A stretch of DNA of 37,583 nucleotides from IMG/VR virus record IMGVR_UViG_3300047476_002081, positions 1 through 37,583 of that record. One strand, 5' to 3'. Source of the stretch: a virus. The translations under genes were made by a program, and so were the position numbers. Below, piece by piece: positions 6,541 through 30,699 of this stretch (positions are counted from its first letter, which is position 1; every line of letters starts with the position of its first letter). The notes below the pieces were generated by a model. That model had not been told where the DNA came from. It saw nothing but the letters and a program-made list of their open reading frames with translations, and made no database searches.

Positions 6541-6561
6541 AATATTTAAGAGGTATTATCT

Positions 6562-6960
6562 ATGCGATTTGGTGTTTTAGTTTCTATTTTAGTTTTATTT
6601 GTTTCTTGTAAGAATGAAAAAGTCTCGTTTGAGACAGCGGAAGAATCTCGAAAAGTAGCTAGGGAAAATTCTGGAGTTTTAGCTAGGCAGTTTAGAGCTG
6701 AAATGAAGATGGATGATTATGATCTTATGCTACGTGGTGATTCAACTATTACGATTGATTGCCCACAGGGGGACGGTTGGGCTTCGATCGACATGTTAAA
6801 TAAAAAGACAGGTGAGACTGTTAAATTAAAGTGCTCGACAATATCCGCTGGCATAGGCTGTTTGCTCGACTCAGACTTTAAGCAGCGAGCACAATATGCA
6901 AATAAGGAAGGCAATTGCGACAAGGACGTTCCTCATCCATTGCCAAAAATCATGAACTGA
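6562..6960 (+). CDS. Predicted lipoprotein
   Basis: A 132-residue exported protein. The N-terminus is a short type II signal peptide, MRFGVLVSILVLF, followed by the lipobox LFVSC with the lipid-anchored Cys at position 16. The mature part is soluble and contains four more Cys (CPQGDGW, KLKCST, GCLLDS, NCDKD), which could form two disulfides in the periplasm. It belongs to no family I recognise. A second lipoprotein with the same LFVSC lipobox is encoded at 7894. Phage lipoproteins often act in the envelope, for example to block superinfection, but nothing here proves that. Confidence 0.68.
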   Translation: MRFGVLVSILVLFVSCKNEKVSFETAEESRKVARENSGVLARQFRAEMKMDDYDLMLRGDSTITIDCPQGDGWASIDMLNKKTGETVKLKCSTISAGIGCLLDSDFKQRAQYANKEGNCDKDVPHPLPKIMN

Positions 6961-13082: not shown

Positions 13083-13643
13083 ATGGAAATATCGCGTGTT
13101 TCGATAGACTTATTGTTAAATGATCCTTCAAACGCTAGATTGCATGACAAAGAGAATTTAGCTGCGATCAAAGGTTCTCTAGCCAAATTCGGGCAACAAA
13201 AGCCTATAGTCATAACTAAAGAGGGTGTAGTTGTAGCAGGCAATGGTACACTCATGGCAGCTCGTGAGTTAGGTTGGACAGCATTAAATGTTGTTTATAC
13301 AGAGTTATCGAGCACTGAAGCCATCGCGTTTGCGATAGCTGATAACCGTACAGCGGAATTAGGAACATGGAATAAGGATGTTTTAGGCAAGCAATTGCTG
13401 GGTTTGTCGCGTGAAGGGTTTGGAATTGCAGATATCGGTTTTGATCCTAAAAAATGGATTAGAAGCGGCTCTGATGACAGTGTTTTAAGTAACGAAATAG
13501 AATTCAAACCTAAATTACCATCAGACGAAGAAAAAGAGAAAAAAGACAAAAAACTAACTTTAGTAGTCGAATGCAAGAGCGTGGAAGATTTAGAAGACTT
13601 ATTTTCAGAGTTAAATGAGCGAGGATTTAAGGTCAAGATATGA
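13083..13643 (+). CDS. ParB/Srx-like domain protein coupled to a DNA methylase
   Basis: A 186-residue protein. Residues 1-105 form a ParB N-terminal (ParB/Srx) domain: LLLNDPSNARLHDKENLAAIKGSLAKFGQQKPIV, then GVVVAGNGTLMAARELGW, where GNGT replaces the GERR box of chromosomal ParB, then EAIAFAIADNRTAEL. Such proteins with G-N-x-T are common beside phage DNA methyltransferases. The C-terminal 60 residues are charged and end in a small beta-alpha unit. GGAG precedes the ATG. It overlaps the methylase gene by 4 bases (ATGA type), which supports a joint role in DNA modification. Whether it binds or hydrolyses nucleotide is not known. Confidence 0.75.
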   Translation: MEISRVSIDLLLNDPSNARLHDKENLAAIKGSLAKFGQQKPIVITKEGVVVAGNGTLMAARELGWTALNVVYTELSSTEAIAFAIADNRTAELGTWNKDVLGKQLLGLSREGFGIADIGFDPKKWIRSGSDDSVLSNEIEFKPKLPSDEEKEKKDKKLTLVVECKSVEDLEDLFSELNERGFKVKI

Positions 13644-14623
13644 GTGATTATGGCATTCCATATATGGGATCAAAAGCCAAGATAGCTCCAAGCATTTGCA
13701 TGGCGCTACCGAAGGCGACTCATTTTTATGACCTGTTTGGCGGTGGTTTTTCGATGACTCACTGCATGCTTGAGCGTTTTCCTCATAAGTATTCACATTT
13801 TCATTACAATGAAATCAAAACCGATATAGTCGATATAGTTAAGCGCTCTATTCAAGGTGAGTTTAACTACGCTGCGTTTAAGCCGGAGTGGGTTTCACGC
13901 GAGGATTTTTTTGCAAAGAAAGACACGGACGCTTATATCAGATGCATTTGGTCTTTTGGGAATAATCAGAGAAATTATTTATTCAATCCTGATATAGAAG
14001 AATACAAAAGATCCATGCATCAAGCAGTGGTGTTTGATGAATTCGATGAGTTAGCAGCAAGCACTTTAGGCTTTAAAAAGTGGCCGTCCATTGCTAAAAC
14101 GATTAAGCAAAAGAGAATTTATTTAAGACAAAAAATAGAGCATTATAGGGTGACGGAAATACCTAAGTTTTTACATAAGTATTTGAGCCAGTCACAGCTT
14201 AGTCAGTTACATACGATAGACAATCTAAGAAAATTACAGCAATTGGAGCGATTGCAGCAATTGGAGCAATTGGAGCGATTGGAGCAATTGGAGCAATTGG
14301 AGCAATTGGAGCGATTGGAGCGATTGGAGCGATTGTCGTTTTACTCTGATAGCTATGAAAAAATAGAGATACTCCCTAATTCAGTTGTTTATTGTGATAT
14401 ACCATATAAAGGTACAGCCGATTACGGCAATGATTTTAACCATAAAAAATTCTTTGACTGGGCATCCTCACGTAATTTTCCAGTTTACATATCTGAGTAC
14501 AATATTGGCGACGATAGGTTTAAGGGTGTTTACTCCATTGGTAAAAGAGTGTTACTCAACGATAACGATAAAAAATTAATCAAAAGCGAGAAGCTATATT
14601 GGAATGGTGTAAAGAATGTCTAG
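13640..14623 (+). CDS. Dam-type adenine-N6 DNA methyltransferase with a QLE/RLE repeat insert
   Basis: A 327-residue enzyme of the MethyltransfD12 type. Residues 6-16 (IPYMGSKAKIA) match the K-rich SAM-binding start; motif I is FYDLFGGGFSMT (29-40). Motif IV is D253-I-P-Y256 in YCDIPYKGTADYG, in place of the usual DPPY. Between them, residues 201-232 consist of the tripeptide Q/R-L-E repeated ten and a half times, encoded by a 9-bp DNA repeat, in the place where target recognition is expected. It may form an extended helix. The substitution of the second residue of DPPY is tolerated in other families, so activity is likely but not assured. It probably marks phage DNA against restriction. It overlaps the ParB-like gene upstream and the next gene by 8 bases. 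Confidence 0.82.
   Translation: MSDYGIPYMGSKAKIAPSICMALPKATHFYDLFGGGFSMTHCMLERFPHKYSHFHYNEIKTDIVDIVKRSIQGEFNYAAFKPEWVSREDFFAKKDTDAYIRCIWSFGNNQRNYLFNPDIEEYKRSMHQAVVFDEFDELAASTLGFKKWPSIAKTIKQKRIYLRQKIEHYRVTEIPKFLHKYLSQSQLSQLHTIDNLRKLQQLERLQQLEQLERLEQLEQLEQLERLERLERLSFYSDSYEKIEILPNSVVYCDIPYKGTADYGNDFNHKKFFDWASSRNFPVYISEYNIGDDRFKGVYSIGKRVLLNDNDKKLIKSEKLYWNGVKNV
14240..14335 (+). repeat. 9-bp tandem repeat inside the methylase gene
   Basis: Ten full units and one partial unit of C(A/G)ATTGGAG run head to tail, in frame, encoding Gln/Arg-Leu-Glu. Six units read CAATTGGAG, three read CGATTGGAG and one CGATTGCAG; the last 6 bases are CGATTG. Because the unit is a multiple of three, copy-number slippage would change the length of the protein but keep the frame. 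Confidence 0.95.
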
Positions 14624-25516: not shown

Positions 25517-25632
25517 TGAGGTATGAAGGCGTATTCATAGATTTAAAGTATGGTGAATTGATATTGTCGAGTTTAATGGCTGAAGTTGAACGTCAATTGG
25601 ATAATTCATATGATCGTCACAGACAAATTTAA
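25336..25632 (+). CDS. Small basic protein upstream of the terminase gene
   Basis: A 98-residue protein with a Lys-rich N-terminus and a helical remainder (RHFTLEQRRQIEWLIDNKQRW, then EDKVKICFLMRYEG, then ELILSSLMAEVERQLD). AGGA precedes the ATG. It overlaps the preceding gene by 181 bases and the terminase gene by 23 bases. A small DNA-binding packaging factor is possible; no family was recognised. Confidence 0.45.
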   Translation: MSSKKTRNKNIKSKKKTDTNKSKRHFTLEQRRQIEWLIDNKQRWKNEDLSFEDKVKICFLMRYEGVFIDLKYGELILSSLMAEVERQLDNSYDRHRQI

Positions 25633-27883
25633 GTCTTATTCTCTATTCACATTTCAAGAGCTTCAAGAAAGTATAACGCAAGACATTGAGAATATGACCG
25701 ATGCTGAGCGTGCGGTTTTTTTTGAGATGCTTTCTAATCCTAGTTTAGAAAGCGATCTAACCGCACTAGAGTTAGATCGTGATATGGTTTCAGTGGAGCA
25801 ATGGATTGAAGACGATTATTACATGGGTAGTTTGGGTAAATCTATTTACAAGCCATGGAAAGATGATTTAATAGAACTCTTTGATTCAGGCCAATACGAT
25901 ACTGCAATTATTCAAGGCGGTATTGGCTGTCTTGCTGGTGAAACTCTTGTGCAGATGGCTGATGGAGATTTAAAACGGCTTAAAGACTTAAATGGCAAAT
26001 CAACTCATATTTTAGCATTTGATAAACCTAATTTGGCTGTTGGCGTTCATAACGGCTTTAAACTTCTTTATGAGATAAAATTAAAAAATGGTTTGATCAT
26101 TAAGGCTACTTCAGAACATAAATTTATGACTCAGGATGGCTGGACTAGAACAGATCAATTAGATATCAATAGGCACAAAATAAAATCACCAAGATTAATT
26201 AAAACTGTCCCTACCGAGTTTTTAATATCATTTGATCAAGCTAGATTTCTTGGCGCTTTATTTTCATGTCAAAGAATAGTTAAGCGAGATAATGGTTATC
26301 TTATTTTTAGGCACGATAAAGATAAAATCGATACGCTGGCATTTTTGGCTGATAAAGTAAATGTCAAGAATAGTAGGTATAATGATTTGTCTTTGTTTTT
26401 TGCTGACTCAGATATTAAAAGTTTTATGTCTATTTTTGATATAGACAATTTATTAGATACTAAAAAAATACCATCAAGAATATTAAAGTCAGATAATTCT
26501 ATTTTAGCAGCATTTTTATCTGGTCTGAGTTTAAATGCTGTTCTTGAAAAGAATATAGCCAGAACTATGTTTTCGATTAGCTACTTCTTTTCAAGCAAAT
26601 CATTTTGTGAAGAAATTCAATTGGCTTTTAGACGATTTGGAATAAGGTTTAAAAGTTTTCATTGCAGTCAAGGCAAGAACAAAACAAGAAGAATCTGTTT
26701 GGAAATAACAGCAAAAGACAGCCTGATAGATTTTTATCAGAATATAGGTTTTGTTCAGGATTCAATGCGAATTAAATTAAAAGAGTTCATACCGCTTATA
26801 GAATTAAAGCTAAATAGAGTTAGGTTAGATTTTATACCTACAACTTATAAAGAATTGGTGAGTTGGTGTAAAAGGCATAAATGCGATATATGGAAACAAA
26901 AAAGCTATTGGTTATCTGGTAAATCAAAAGATCTTTATGCCAGTTATAGAGAAGTCAAATCTGTGATTGATCATTATCCACATATGATTTGTCATGCGTG
27001 GGAAATACAATTTGATCCTGACAGTTTTTGGGATGATGTCGTTTCTATTAAAGAAGCTGGATATGAGAATTGTTATGACCTAGTTGTGCCTGATGAGAAT
27101 TGTTATTTATCGAATGGCATTCTTTGTCATAATTCTGGAAAATCGACGTTTTCTCATTTAGTAGTTTTGCGCATGCTCTATGAAGCATCATGCCTTAAAA
27201 ATCCAGCTATAAGTTATGGTCTAGCAGCTAATTCAGTTATTGGATTTTGTTCATTAGCTAAATCAAAAGAGACAGCTAGACGCGTAGTATTTGATCAAAT
27301 AGCCGCTAAAATACAAGAATCGCCATATTTTAAATACGACTTTGCTCCACTAAAACCTTTAAAAGATGAAATTATATTTCCAAAAGGTTTAGCTATTATT
27401 TGCGGTTCATCGACTGATACATCAATCATTGGTATGAACATATTTGGCGGCATTATTGATGAAGTTAACTTTTGGGGAAAAGTAAAAAAGAGTAATGCTA
27501 GCTTTACAAAGAATTGGGGATCAGAAAGTAAATCAGGTCGCCTATTCGATTCGGTTCGTCGAAGGATGAAATCTCGCTATGTAAAAAAAGGTAAATTACC
27601 TGGCATTATTATGCTTATTTCATCTAAAACAACAAAAGATAGTTTAACAGAGCAATTCATAAGAAAAGAGCAAGCTCTAGGTAATAAATCAACATTCGTT
27701 AGAGATCGATCAATTATTGAGATGAAAAGAGGTTCGTTCTCATCTAAGACATTTAGAGTTTTAGTTGGAACTACAGACTATGTTTCAAGGATTATTGGCG
27801 ACACAGAAGAAATTAAAGACGAAAATGCTTTAATAGTAGAAATACCCGAAGACTTCAGAGTCGATTTTGTAAACAAAATATAA
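25610..27883 (+). CDS. terL: Terminase large subunit, ATPase part, interrupted by an intein
   Basis: The DNA-packaging motor ATPase. The precursor has 757 residues: N-extein 1-106, intein 107-508, C-extein 509-757. After splicing GGIG joins SGKST to make the P-loop GGIGSGKST. Walker B is GGIIDEVNFW with Asp617 and Glu618. The C-extein goes on with LPGIIMLISSKTTKD (motif III region) and FRVLVGTTDYVSRI. The frame ends in TAA TAA at 27881-27886, but the nuclease half continues in the same frame from 27887. The protein would thus lack its nuclease domain unless the stops are bypassed. ATG 25610 is preferred; the frame is open from TTG 25586. The start overlaps the preceding gene. Confidence 0.9.
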   Translation: MIVTDKFKSYSLFTFQELQESITQDIENMTDAERAVFFEMLSNPSLESDLTALELDRDMVSVEQWIEDDYYMGSLGKSIYKPWKDDLIELFDSGQYDTAIIQGGIGCLAGETLVQMADGDLKRLKDLNGKSTHILAFDKPNLAVGVHNGFKLLYEIKLKNGLIIKATSEHKFMTQDGWTRTDQLDINRHKIKSPRLIKTVPTEFLISFDQARFLGALFSCQRIVKRDNGYLIFRHDKDKIDTLAFLADKVNVKNSRYNDLSLFFADSDIKSFMSIFDIDNLLDTKKIPSRILKSDNSILAAFLSGLSLNAVLEKNIARTMFSISYFFSSKSFCEEIQLAFRRFGIRFKSFHCSQGKNKTRRICLEITAKDSLIDFYQNIGFVQDSMRIKLKEFIPLIELKLNRVRLDFIPTTYKELVSWCKRHKCDIWKQKSYWLSGKSKDLYASYREVKSVIDHYPHMICHAWEIQFDPDSFWDDVVSIKEAGYENCYDLVVPDENCYLSNGILCHNSGKSTFSHLVVLRMLYEASCLKNPAISYGLAANSVIGFCSLAKSKETARRVVFDQIAAKIQESPYFKYDFAPLKPLKDEIIFPKGLAIICGSSTDTSIIGMNIFGGIIDEVNFWGKVKKSNASFTKNWGSESKSGRLFDSVRRRMKSRYVKKGKLPGIIMLISSKTTKDSLTEQFIRKEQALGNKSTFVRDRSIIEMKRGSFSSKTFRVLVGTTDYVSRIIGDTEEIKDENALIVEIPEDFRVDFVNKI
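25928..27133 (+). mobile_element. Intein with a decayed LAGLIDADG endonuclease, in the terminase P-loop
   Basis: A 402-residue intein. Block A begins with Cys107 (CLAGETLVQMADGD), block B contains TSEH (167-170), block F/G is CYDLVVPDENCYLSNGILCHN with His507-Asn508, and the +1 residue is Ser509, so all splicing residues are present. Between them lies a homing endonuclease domain whose two LAGLIDADG helices have become FLGALFSC (213-220) and FLSGLSLNA (302-310). Both have lost the acidic metal-binding residue, so cleavage is probably dead while splicing is kept. It sits between Gly and Ser of the Walker A motif, where failure to splice would destroy packaging. Confidence 0.93.
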
Positions 27884-27886
27884 TAA

Positions 27887-28984
27887 ACGTTAAGAGACAT
27901 TGCTGGTATATCGACTCTTGCTATTTCAAATTTTATATCAAAAGTTGAAAAAATAAATGAAATGGTTGATCCATCAAGGGTTCATCCTTTCTCATGTCCA
28001 TTTATGCCAGATCCTACTACATGGGATAGTCGTAGAAACTACCATATGAATTGGGATGCTTTGGCTATTCGTTTAGATAACGGTGATTGGAAACCAAGAT
28101 TGAATCCTGAAGCTGCTAGGCATGTTCATTTTGATCCAGGGTTCACAGGCGATAGTTTTGGTTTAGCGATTACTCATGTTGGTGGGTTTGTTCCAGTTGA
28201 GCAAAGCGGTGAGATAATTGAATACAAGCCATTGTTTATTATTGATTTCATACTAGAAATAAAAGGCTCTAAAGAAGAAGAAGTATTGAATCATAATGTT
28301 AGAAAGCTTTGTTATGAGTTTGTTGCTCATGGTTTTCATTTGGCTGAATTTAGTACGGATACATATCAAAGTAGAGAGATGATTCAGCAATTAGAGCAGC
28401 AAGGATTTAAAGCAGGGGTTTATTCTGTTGACACTGGCATTTCTTCGCGTGGTGAAAATGTTGTAACGGATGCCGTTGGTAAAATTCCAAAGGCAAAGCA
28501 AGCGTATTGGTATTTTCGTTCTGCAATTTATGAGGGCAGGGTAAAATGTTATGATTATCCAAGATTCCTTGGGGAATTAAGACGATTAGAAGAAGGTCCA
28601 GACAAAATAGACCATCCAGAAGGTGAAAGCAAAGATTTAGCCGATGCAGCGTGCGGTTCGATTTGGACTTTATATCGAGCTAAATATACGGGGGACGTTC
28701 TTATGCCGAGCAGGGGAATAAGTGAATCTGCAACGGGTATAGGTGAAACATTGTTAGATTATCAGCAGAGTTTAATTGAAGGCGATAATGTTTTAATAAC
28801 AAAACAGCTTCACAATGATGAAATCTCTGATGTTAATCCTAGCCAATCTGAGAAGAAGGTTTATCATAAGAAAAAACCTGTTACGCTGTCTCCATCATAT
28901 AAAAAAGTATCTGCTAATGGATCGGTATCGGATATGCGTCAAGGGCATGAGTATGATGTGGAAGCTTATATTCAGCGCGGCTAA
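27887..28984 (+). CDS. terL: Terminase large subunit, nuclease part, split from the ATPase by tandem stops
   Basis: The nuclease that cuts the DNA concatemer. From 27887 the frame reads TLRDIAGISTLAISNF, which matches the sequence that follows the ATPase domain in intact terminases (aLRDIaGvst). It has an RNase H-like core: HFDPGFTGDS (Asp58 counted from ATG 27962), EFSTDTYQS (Asp133) and KDLADAACGS (Asp225/228). The only visible start is ATG 27962, which has no ribosome binding site and would skip the first 25 codons. The frame is the same as that of the ATPase part. The C-terminal 90 residues are a polar tail. Read-through, re-initiation or a broken gene are all possible. The nuclease identity is secure; its expression is not. 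Confidence 0.8.
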   Translation, partial: TLRDIAGISTLAISNFISKVEKINEMVDPSRVHPFSCPFMPDPTTWDSRRNYHMNWDALAIRLDNGDWKPRLNPEAARHVHFDPGFTGDSFGLAITHVGGFVPVEQSGEIIEYKPLFIIDFILEIKGSKEEEVLNHNVRKLCYEFVAHGFHLAEFSTDTYQSREMIQQLEQQGFKAGVYSVDTGISSRGENVVTDAVGKIPKAKQAYWYFRSAIYEGRVKCYDYPRFLGELRRLEEGPDKIDHPEGESKDLADAACGSIWTLYRAKYTGDVLMPSRGISESATGIGETLLDYQQSLIEGDNVLITKQLHNDEISDVNPSQSEKKVYHKKKPVTLSPSYKKVSANGSVSDMRQGHEYDVEAYIQRG

Positions 28985-29025: not shown

Positions 29026-30699
29026 ATGGGTATAGCTGGCAATAGTTTGGATCTTATTAGAACAGTCTTTAAGCGTAATAATGTCTTACCTGTTTCAGAT
29101 CGATATTACGATGCTGTTGCAAGGTCATCTGTCGCTATGGCTGGCAATCCAGGGATTATCACCAGTGGAAATAGTCATATTTCTGACTCCGTCCGAATTG
29201 AAGAAGATTTGATGAGTCGATATGCAGATTATGAATCTATGGATGCTTTTCCTGAACTCGGTGCAGCGTTAGATATATTTGCTGATGATGCAACGGTTCA
29301 AGATGTCTTGACTGGTAAAAGCCTTTGGTTTGAATCTGATGATGAATCAGTTGATTTCATTTTGAATGAAATGGTCGATGTTAATTTAAAGTTGGAAAAT
29401 GATTTATGGGGAATTACTCGATCTCTTTGTAAATCTGGTAATGAATTTTTAGAACCTATTGTCTTAGACAATTCAGGTATCATCAAACTCAATCATATTC
29501 CACCGCCTTGGATTAGACGCATAGAAGATCTTAATGGGATTCTATATGGCTACATTCAAGATCCAGGAATGCAGTTTACTATCGATACACAAACATTTTT
29601 AGATCGTTTAAAGAACAAAACTGCTGGCGCAATGGAAATTCCTGATTATTCATCGAACATGTTAGAAGTCTATGAACCATGGGAAATCGTTCATATGCGT
29701 TTAAGATCACGATCAATGCGTGATCTTTATGGTTTCAGCGTGCTTGAAGCAGCGCGATATGCTTGGAAGCGTTTAGAGCTTATGGAAGATGCGATGCTTA
29801 TGTATAAAGTAACTCGCTCACCACAGCGCTATGCTTTTTATGTTGATGTTGGAGATGTGCCGCCTAACGGAGTAAAAGGTTTTTTAAATAGAATTAAAAA
29901 CGAATTTAAGAAATCTAAGTTTATCGATCCTCAAAGTGGAAAGCCTAATTTTAGATATTCACCGCTTTCAGCAGAAGATGATTTTTTCTTGCCAGTTAGA
30001 AAAGATCGTAAGGGAACTGAGATAGAGGTTTTAGCTGGTCCTGAAGGTCAATCAGTTGAAGATGTCGAATACTTTTTAAATAAAGTTTTTGCTGCTCTTA
30101 AAATTCCAAAATCATATTTAGGTGCTGATGAAACCGTTGGCAGGGCTAATTTAAGTCAACTTGACGTTCGCCTATGTCGAACTGTCATGCGTATCCAGCG
30201 TGAAATCAAAAACGGTATGAGACAGCTAGCACGAGTTGATTTAGCCGCAAAAAATATCGATCCTGATCGAGTATCATTTGATCCCTTTATGGTTATCCCA
30301 TCAGGTGCTTTTGAATTAGCTCAAGTTGAAGTTGAAAAAGCTAAGTTAGAATTAGCTTCGCAATATCGTGACGCAAAGTTTTCTGAATATTGGATTTTCT
30401 CTAAAATAATGGGTTTATCTGATGAAGAAATACTACAGATTCAGAAGCAGCGCGTTAGGGAAGGGGAAGGTGACTTCACAGCAGAAGATGCTGGTCTTAC
30501 TCGTGATGCACTGCCCAGGTTGGTCGATAACGCGCAGGCTAATTATGATAGAAGGGCTGACAGATATCAAAATAAGATCTTGGATGAAATCTCACAGGGC
30601 AATACCAATCTTAGCCGACGACTCAGAGAGGTCAAACTACTTACACAGGACATTAGATCATCTCTCAGGAATCAGAAACGATTCAATGGACGAAAATGA
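29026..30699 (+). CDS. Portal protein, T4 gp20-like
   Basis: The 12-subunit ring at the head vertex through which DNA passes. The 557-residue protein carries RIEEDLMSRYADYESMDAFPELGAALDIFADDAT near residue 65, typical of T4-type portals, then a core with IPPPWIRRIEDLNGILYGYI, VYEPWEIVHMRLRSR, GFSVLEAARYAWKRLELMEDAMLMYKVTRSPQR, and the later FFLPVRKDRKGTEIEVLAGPEG and LKIPKSYLGADET, all familiar from gp20 relatives. GGATAAG precedes the ATG. It follows the terminase, as expected. The C-terminal 60 residues are charged and helical. Confidence 0.9.
   Translation: MGIAGNSLDLIRTVFKRNNVLPVSDRYYDAVARSSVAMAGNPGIITSGNSHISDSVRIEEDLMSRYADYESMDAFPELGAALDIFADDATVQDVLTGKSLWFESDDESVDFILNEMVDVNLKLENDLWGITRSLCKSGNEFLEPIVLDNSGIIKLNHIPPPWIRRIEDLNGILYGYIQDPGMQFTIDTQTFLDRLKNKTAGAMEIPDYSSNMLEVYEPWEIVHMRLRSRSMRDLYGFSVLEAARYAWKRLELMEDAMLMYKVTRSPQRYAFYVDVGDVPPNGVKGFLNRIKNEFKKSKFIDPQSGKPNFRYSPLSAEDDFFLPVRKDRKGTEIEVLAGPEGQSVEDVEYFLNKVFAALKIPKSYLGADETVGRANLSQLDVRLCRTVMRIQREIKNGMRQLARVDLAAKNIDPDRVSFDPFMVIPSGAFELAQVEVEKAKLELASQYRDAKFSEYWIFSKIMGLSDEEILQIQKQRVREGEGDFTAEDAGLTRDALPRLVDNAQANYDRRADRYQNKILDEISQGNTNLSRRLREVKLLTQDIRSSLRNQKRFNGRK

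Follow-up and report, generated by a model that had tools for sequence, protein, structure and literature searches.

How should the large terminase gene (terL) of a phage be read when two consecutive stop codons stand in its frame and the sequence of its family goes on directly behind them? The gene in question lies in the window, by which we mean the whole stretch of 37,583 nucleotides that was analysed (IMG/VR virus record IMGVR_UViG_3300047476_002081). A first-pass annotation, made from the letters, had presented it as a split terminase and had listed four options (programmed read-through, re-initiation to make a two-part terminase, a recent double lesion, an assembly error), none of which it chose. 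If the stops were real and the gene functional, the locus would imply either efficient read-through of a double UAA or a terminase motor built of two chains. Our analysis suggests instead that an ordinary, intein-bearing TerL has probably been hit by a recent double nonsense change or carries an error in the consensus.

Results

The terL frame opens at ATG 25610, ends with the TAA at 28982-28984 and is interrupted by TAA TAA at 27881-27886, directly after ...FRVDFVNKI. TLRDIAGISTLAISNF follows the stops in the unchanged frame. The parts of the gene are:

25610..28984, plus strand: reading frame of the large terminase, interrupted at 27881-27886
25610..25927, plus strand: N-extein of TerL, up to GGIG of Walker A; the start matches the relatives' MI(I/V)(T/S)D(K/R)FKSYSLF
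25928..27133, plus strand: intein of 402 aa in Walker A (GGIG/C...HN/SGKST; Pfam PF14890 Intein_splicing, E 6.5e-14)
27134..27880, plus strand: C-extein before the stops, the rest of the ATPase domain (identity 82% to L003, 77% to L004)
27881..27886, plus strand: TAA TAA in place of Glu-Glu, residues 249-250 of the structural model, where the last ATPase helix (248-256) begins
27887..27961, plus strand: 25 family-like codons from the stops to the first in-frame ATG, 21 of the 25 residues being identical to L003
27962..28984, plus strand: open frame from ATG 27962 (model residue 276), the nuclease domain minus its first 10-15 residues, without a Shine-Dalgarno sequence

The span is covered in alignment by the intact TerL proteins of relatives (1094 and 1129 aa), the read-through product agrees in its fold with TerL structures, and a portal gene (phrog_213, E 1.6e-56) adjoins terL at 29026-30699 in a late-gene and packaging module. 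Walker A and Walker B are both present (GGIG/SGKST across the intein; IIDEVNF), and the family alignment shows conservation of K2, D108 and E109 as well as of the acidic residues D333, D339, D408, D492, D500 and D503 of the RNase H-like nuclease. By the standard code, the two domains do not come to lie on one polypeptide since TAA TAA ends the ATPase part, whereas the relatives are continuous.

What the first-pass annotation had called the ATPase half is really an N-extein, an intein and a C-extein, the Walker A intein having been overlooked. Its description of the site itself held up well. Family sequence goes on past an in-frame TAATAA, as seen both in the letters and by tblastn; the stops fill the places of two residues in a gap-free alignment, so that no frameshift is needed; the region of TLRDIAG matches the continuation of the ATPase domain without a gap; the sole downstream start, ATG 27962, has no ribosome binding site and about 25 family-like codons precede it; and TAA is a normal stop elsewhere, where it terminates other homology-supported frames, including terL at its own end. 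The heading of a split terminase claims more than the evidence shows.

The intein has the features expected of the Hint fold, namely the PF14890 match, a Cys1 and the HN/S junction, from which splicing is predicted; it also contains the degenerate LAGLIDADG-like motifs LGALFSC and LSGLSLNA. Its insertion site in Walker A is common to the inteins of the window, L003 and L004, while the TerL of L150 has no intein there. No link between the intein and the stops is apparent.

Several related inserts were observed in the records of relatives. Antisense in the TerL Walker A intein of L003 (4211-5044, minus strand) lies an open frame of 277 aa; it includes the HNH-like stretch VVHHIDENPRNNDPENL and has the look of an endonuclease gene placed inside the intein on the opposite strand. 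The TerL proteins of L150 (3001-5949) and L148, both without the Walker A intein, carry a long insert of HNH type (C...FVHN/S) behind DTYQ in the nuclease domain. The portal protein of L004 (7032-9611, 859 aa) carries two small intein-like inserts, CLSLDTKIPV...FVKN/S and CLVPETKVV...YVHN/S, both of which are missing from the window portal of 557 aa. The TerL-like frames of L119 and L120 contain three in-frame TGA codons and possibly belong to phages reading TGA as tryptophan.

The nearest records have an uninterrupted TerL, of 1094 aa in L003 and 1129 aa in L004. With the protein of L003, tblastn aligned 27038-28981 of the window as one piece (68% identity, no frameshift), and the only stops inside this alignment are the pair at 27881-27886. 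Relatives read N-L-E-E-S-L-R-D at the site, the window K-I-stop-stop-T-L-R-D, and the Glu-Glu codons are GAAGAG (L003, L122), GAGGAG (L004, L149) or GAGGAA (L152). The residues at the site vary across the wider TerL family; six named phages (Rhodobacter RcZahn, Vibrio KarBoss and SIO-2, Rhizobium RHph_TM16 and RHph_TM21B, Pseudomonas SM1) align there without a gap and have other residues. When 87 further viral and MAG TerL loci were aligned, a stop at the site occurred in none of the 86 that cover it, nor in another 16 loci on contigs partly shared with this set. That close relatives might keep TAATAA, a check proposed in the first-pass annotation and a usual test of recoding, was thus not borne out: the two close relatives and all of the approximately 100 aligned TerL loci have sense codons. 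An exact-pattern scan of the viral collection, in which the records most similar to the window may be missing, found neither TAATAA before an xLRDIAG motif nor any closer relatives.

The sequence behind the stops has diverged as coding sequence does. Compared with L003, the 25 codons before ATG 27962 show 6 differences in the first codon position, 0 in the second and 17 in the third, the differences in the following nuclease part are likewise mostly in the third position, and beyond the stop 27 of 28 positions conserved in the family are retained. The excess of third-position differences together with the retained residues indicates that constraint lasted until recently, and coding-type divergence in the codons between stop and ATG makes an old two-part terminase appear unlikely. 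On the branch of the window, the relative change in the second half is 1.6-fold, a non-significant value as the bootstrap 95% interval (0.9-2.9) includes 1. All six consensus columns around the stops, with the stops counted, differ in the window (permutation P 0.005), in a neighbourhood where adjoining columns are also fast. Judged from these substitutions, the cluster of window-specific changes and the slight excess in the second half could hint at a longer-standing relaxation.

To locate the stops in the protein, we used an AlphaFold2 model of the C-extein (mean pLDDT 84), in which both stops were read as Glu for the fold only. Model residues 249-250 open helix 248-256, the last one of the ATPase domain. 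In alignment, structures of isolated ATPase domains (P74-26, T4 gp17) cover the model from residue 1 to 260-266, those of isolated nucleases (G20c, RB49, Sf6, SPP1) from residues 260-267 on; the stops lie about 12 residues before the boundary between the domains and ATG 27962 about 12 residues inside the nuclease. With the stops in an ATPase helix and the ATG inside the nuclease domain, neither product is a clean domain: according to the model, the upstream product would lack the last ATPase helix, the product from ATG 27962 the first 10-15 nuclease residues. The halves therefore do not resemble a two-gene terminase, in which each would be a complete domain with its own start. A sequence search against solved structures (PDB) gave no match to a terminase, but the fold comparison did.

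We found no signal that would carry ribosomes over or around the stops. The tRNA search, which covered the window and the records of five relatives, the genome being incomplete, detected no tRNA in either; as applied to the relatives, it was positive in 14 of 14 control genomes. The RNA fold after the stops (z -1.3, with 24 of 200 shuffles as good) is not beyond chance. ATG 27962 has no Shine-Dalgarno match, while a match of at least 4 bases precedes 21 of the 39 window genes. A frameshift or bypass was rejected, since the alignment is gap-free and in the same frame and, by inspection, no in-frame pair of take-off and landing codons spares LRDIAG. The stops also form TATAAT at 27879-27884, with no -35-like partner at standard spacing. 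A new internal promoter was rejected as well: 27500-28400 contains no promoter-like site, and TATAATAA is no more frequent than chance predicts (3 occurrences, 3.9 expected). Our literature search found no paper on a split terminase or on a two-gene arrangement of ATPase and nuclease.

The quality of the remaining window was assessed by tblastn of the relatives' open frames. In approximately 35 frames supported by homology, internal stops are limited to the terL pair, so that none of the others has an internal TAA; further internal stops were confined to shadow frames and to regions upstream of starts. The window frames stop at TAA in 12 cases (the terL pair counted once, terL's own end included), at TGA in 17 and at TAG in 8. 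TAA terminates ten other homology-supported frames besides terL at its homologous end, and several of these ends match those of relatives (e.g. 22612, 28982, 36768). For the window, we rejected an alternative genetic code with TAA as a sense codon, since genes terminate in TAA where their homologues end. The hexamer TAATAA is not enriched (45 found, 52.8 expected), and since 4 other genes also end in tandem stops, a tandem stop by itself says little: what is unusual about this TAATAA is its place, not the hexamer.

Two further features of the window were observed. A gene for 132 aa at 6559-6957 shares about 90% identity with the corresponding gene of L041, compared to 37-76% for most other genes, which suggests recent exchange or strong constraint. 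At 14250-14400, a run of LEQLERLEQLEQ repeats lies in a DNA-methylase-like protein (gene 13640-14623).

Discussion

We consider it likely that the TerL of this locus is an ordinary, intein-bearing one in which two codons have recently mutated to stops or the consensus sequence is in error. Following this reading, the gene would be a normal phage terL of the lineage with an intein in Walker A, in which two adjacent Glu codons (GAA/GAG pairs in the nearest relatives) now appear as TAA TAA, two G-to-T changes sufficing to turn GAAGAA into TAATAA, and it would not be a programmed split. As written, it should give rise to an intein-containing ATPase fragment in which the last helix is missing, and to no nuclease half that is properly made. 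A phage with exactly such a sequence should not package DNA without help, and we infer that no recoding rescues terL. In favour of this reading count the sense codons that all of the approximately 100 TerL loci have at the site, Glu-Glu being encoded by the nearest relatives. Against it count that a random lesion or error is less expected to leave two adjacent stops than one, that the other compared frames of the 37.6-kb window are clean, which speaks for a good consensus quality, that a phage common enough to be assembled should have its essential genes intact, and that the window-specific cluster of changes at the site and the slight, non-significant excess in the second half could point to a relaxation of longer standing. 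With adjacent stops in an essential gene and an otherwise clean sequence, no ordinary account fits comfortably. Of the four options listed at the outset, the recent double lesion and the assembly error are hence the favoured ones, while no support was found for read-through or re-initiation. Between a true lesion and a sequence error the chances are about even, an error or a rare variant being slightly likelier as a population dominated by terL-null free phage should not persist.

But could the stops be real and the motor work nevertheless? This would require two tandem TAA to be decoded late, or two separately translated halves to act together around a spliced, intein-bearing ATPase fragment, and we regard it as unlikely. 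The first route supposes that a suppressor tRNA, from the phage or from its host, decodes both TAA, or that they are decoded in a host with altered termination, to give full-length TerL late in infection. The unbroken frame and family sequence with coding constraint right after the stops agree with it, as does the variability of the replaced residues across the wider family, by which many residues would be tolerated; the window is moreover a fragment, so that a tRNA might lie elsewhere or in the host, and recoding has been proposed in a terminase gene before (phage Hau3, PMC5009743). Its cost is that TAA also ends many window genes, terL among them, at homologous ends, and that two consecutive stops multiply the loss. 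Given, in addition, the missing tRNA in the window and the relatives' records, the absence of unusual RNA structure downstream and stops that no relative keeps, functional read-through appears improbable.

The second route, a stop at TAATAA followed by a restart at ATG 27962 or an earlier rare start and assembly of separate ATPase and nuclease, fares worse and is in our view very improbable. No further stop interrupts the frame between ATG 27962 and its end, the signature residues of the nuclease are retained in it, and tandem stops do close 4 other window genes; however, both halves are cut inside a domain (the ATPase before its last helix, the nuclease within its first 10-15 residues), the ATG has no Shine-Dalgarno, coding constraint is seen in the 25 codons that a restart there would leave untranslated, and a split terL is found in no relative. 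In T4, the ATPase and the nuclease each remain active once the two domains are separated, but DNA translocation is abolished (PMC9958956), a result to which a two-chain motor, if true, would stand in contrast.

Least probable by a small step is a decaying prophage or helper-dependent phage with terL as a real, fixed pseudogene, for which speak the two inactivating codons side by side, the window-specific cluster of changes around the site and the slight, non-significant 1.6-fold excess in the second half, and against which stand the intact state of all other compared genes, the lack of a noticed integrase in the window and the 27 of 28 family-conserved residues kept in the second half. It is a special case close to the double nonsense change or consensus error preferred here, kept apart as it predicts TAATAA to be real in a stable lineage. 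The present evidence mainly advises caution: in-frame stops in conserved metagenome genes should be compared with relatives and with reads before recoding is proposed.

Comparison with known systems

The read-through product shares its two domains and their order with the large terminases of HK97 (6z6d), T4 (gp17, 3cpe) and P74-26/G20c. Its model gives VIA-align Z values of 16-17 to the G20c nuclease and T4 gp17 and of 14-15 to the P74-26 ATPase domain; it differs from these solved structures in sequence (about 12% identity) and by the two stops in the last ATPase helix.

The terminase gene of Streptomyces phage Hau3 is similar in that a recoding event, translational bypassing, was proposed within it (PMC5009743). 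There, a UUA codon and bypassing are involved, whereas the window has two in-frame TAA, no alignment gap and, by inspection, no take-off and landing pair that keeps LRDIAG.

The inteins TerL1-a and TerL1-b of mycobacteriophages (PMC5050341) likewise sit in the P-loop of TerL, start with Cys1, end in His-Asn/Ser and match PF14890. In contrast, the window intein belongs to another phage lineage and is inserted before SGKST, TerL1-a between Lys and Thr.

Closest to the locus as a whole are nonsense-disrupted gene copies or consensus errors in metagenome phage contigs, in which one gene has stops, the flanking homology is intact, relatives have sense codons and the rest is clean; where the usual case has a single stop, the window has two next to each other. 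Disruption of a known gene by nonsense codons is a familiar kind of finding, as is an intein placed in Walker A of TerL.
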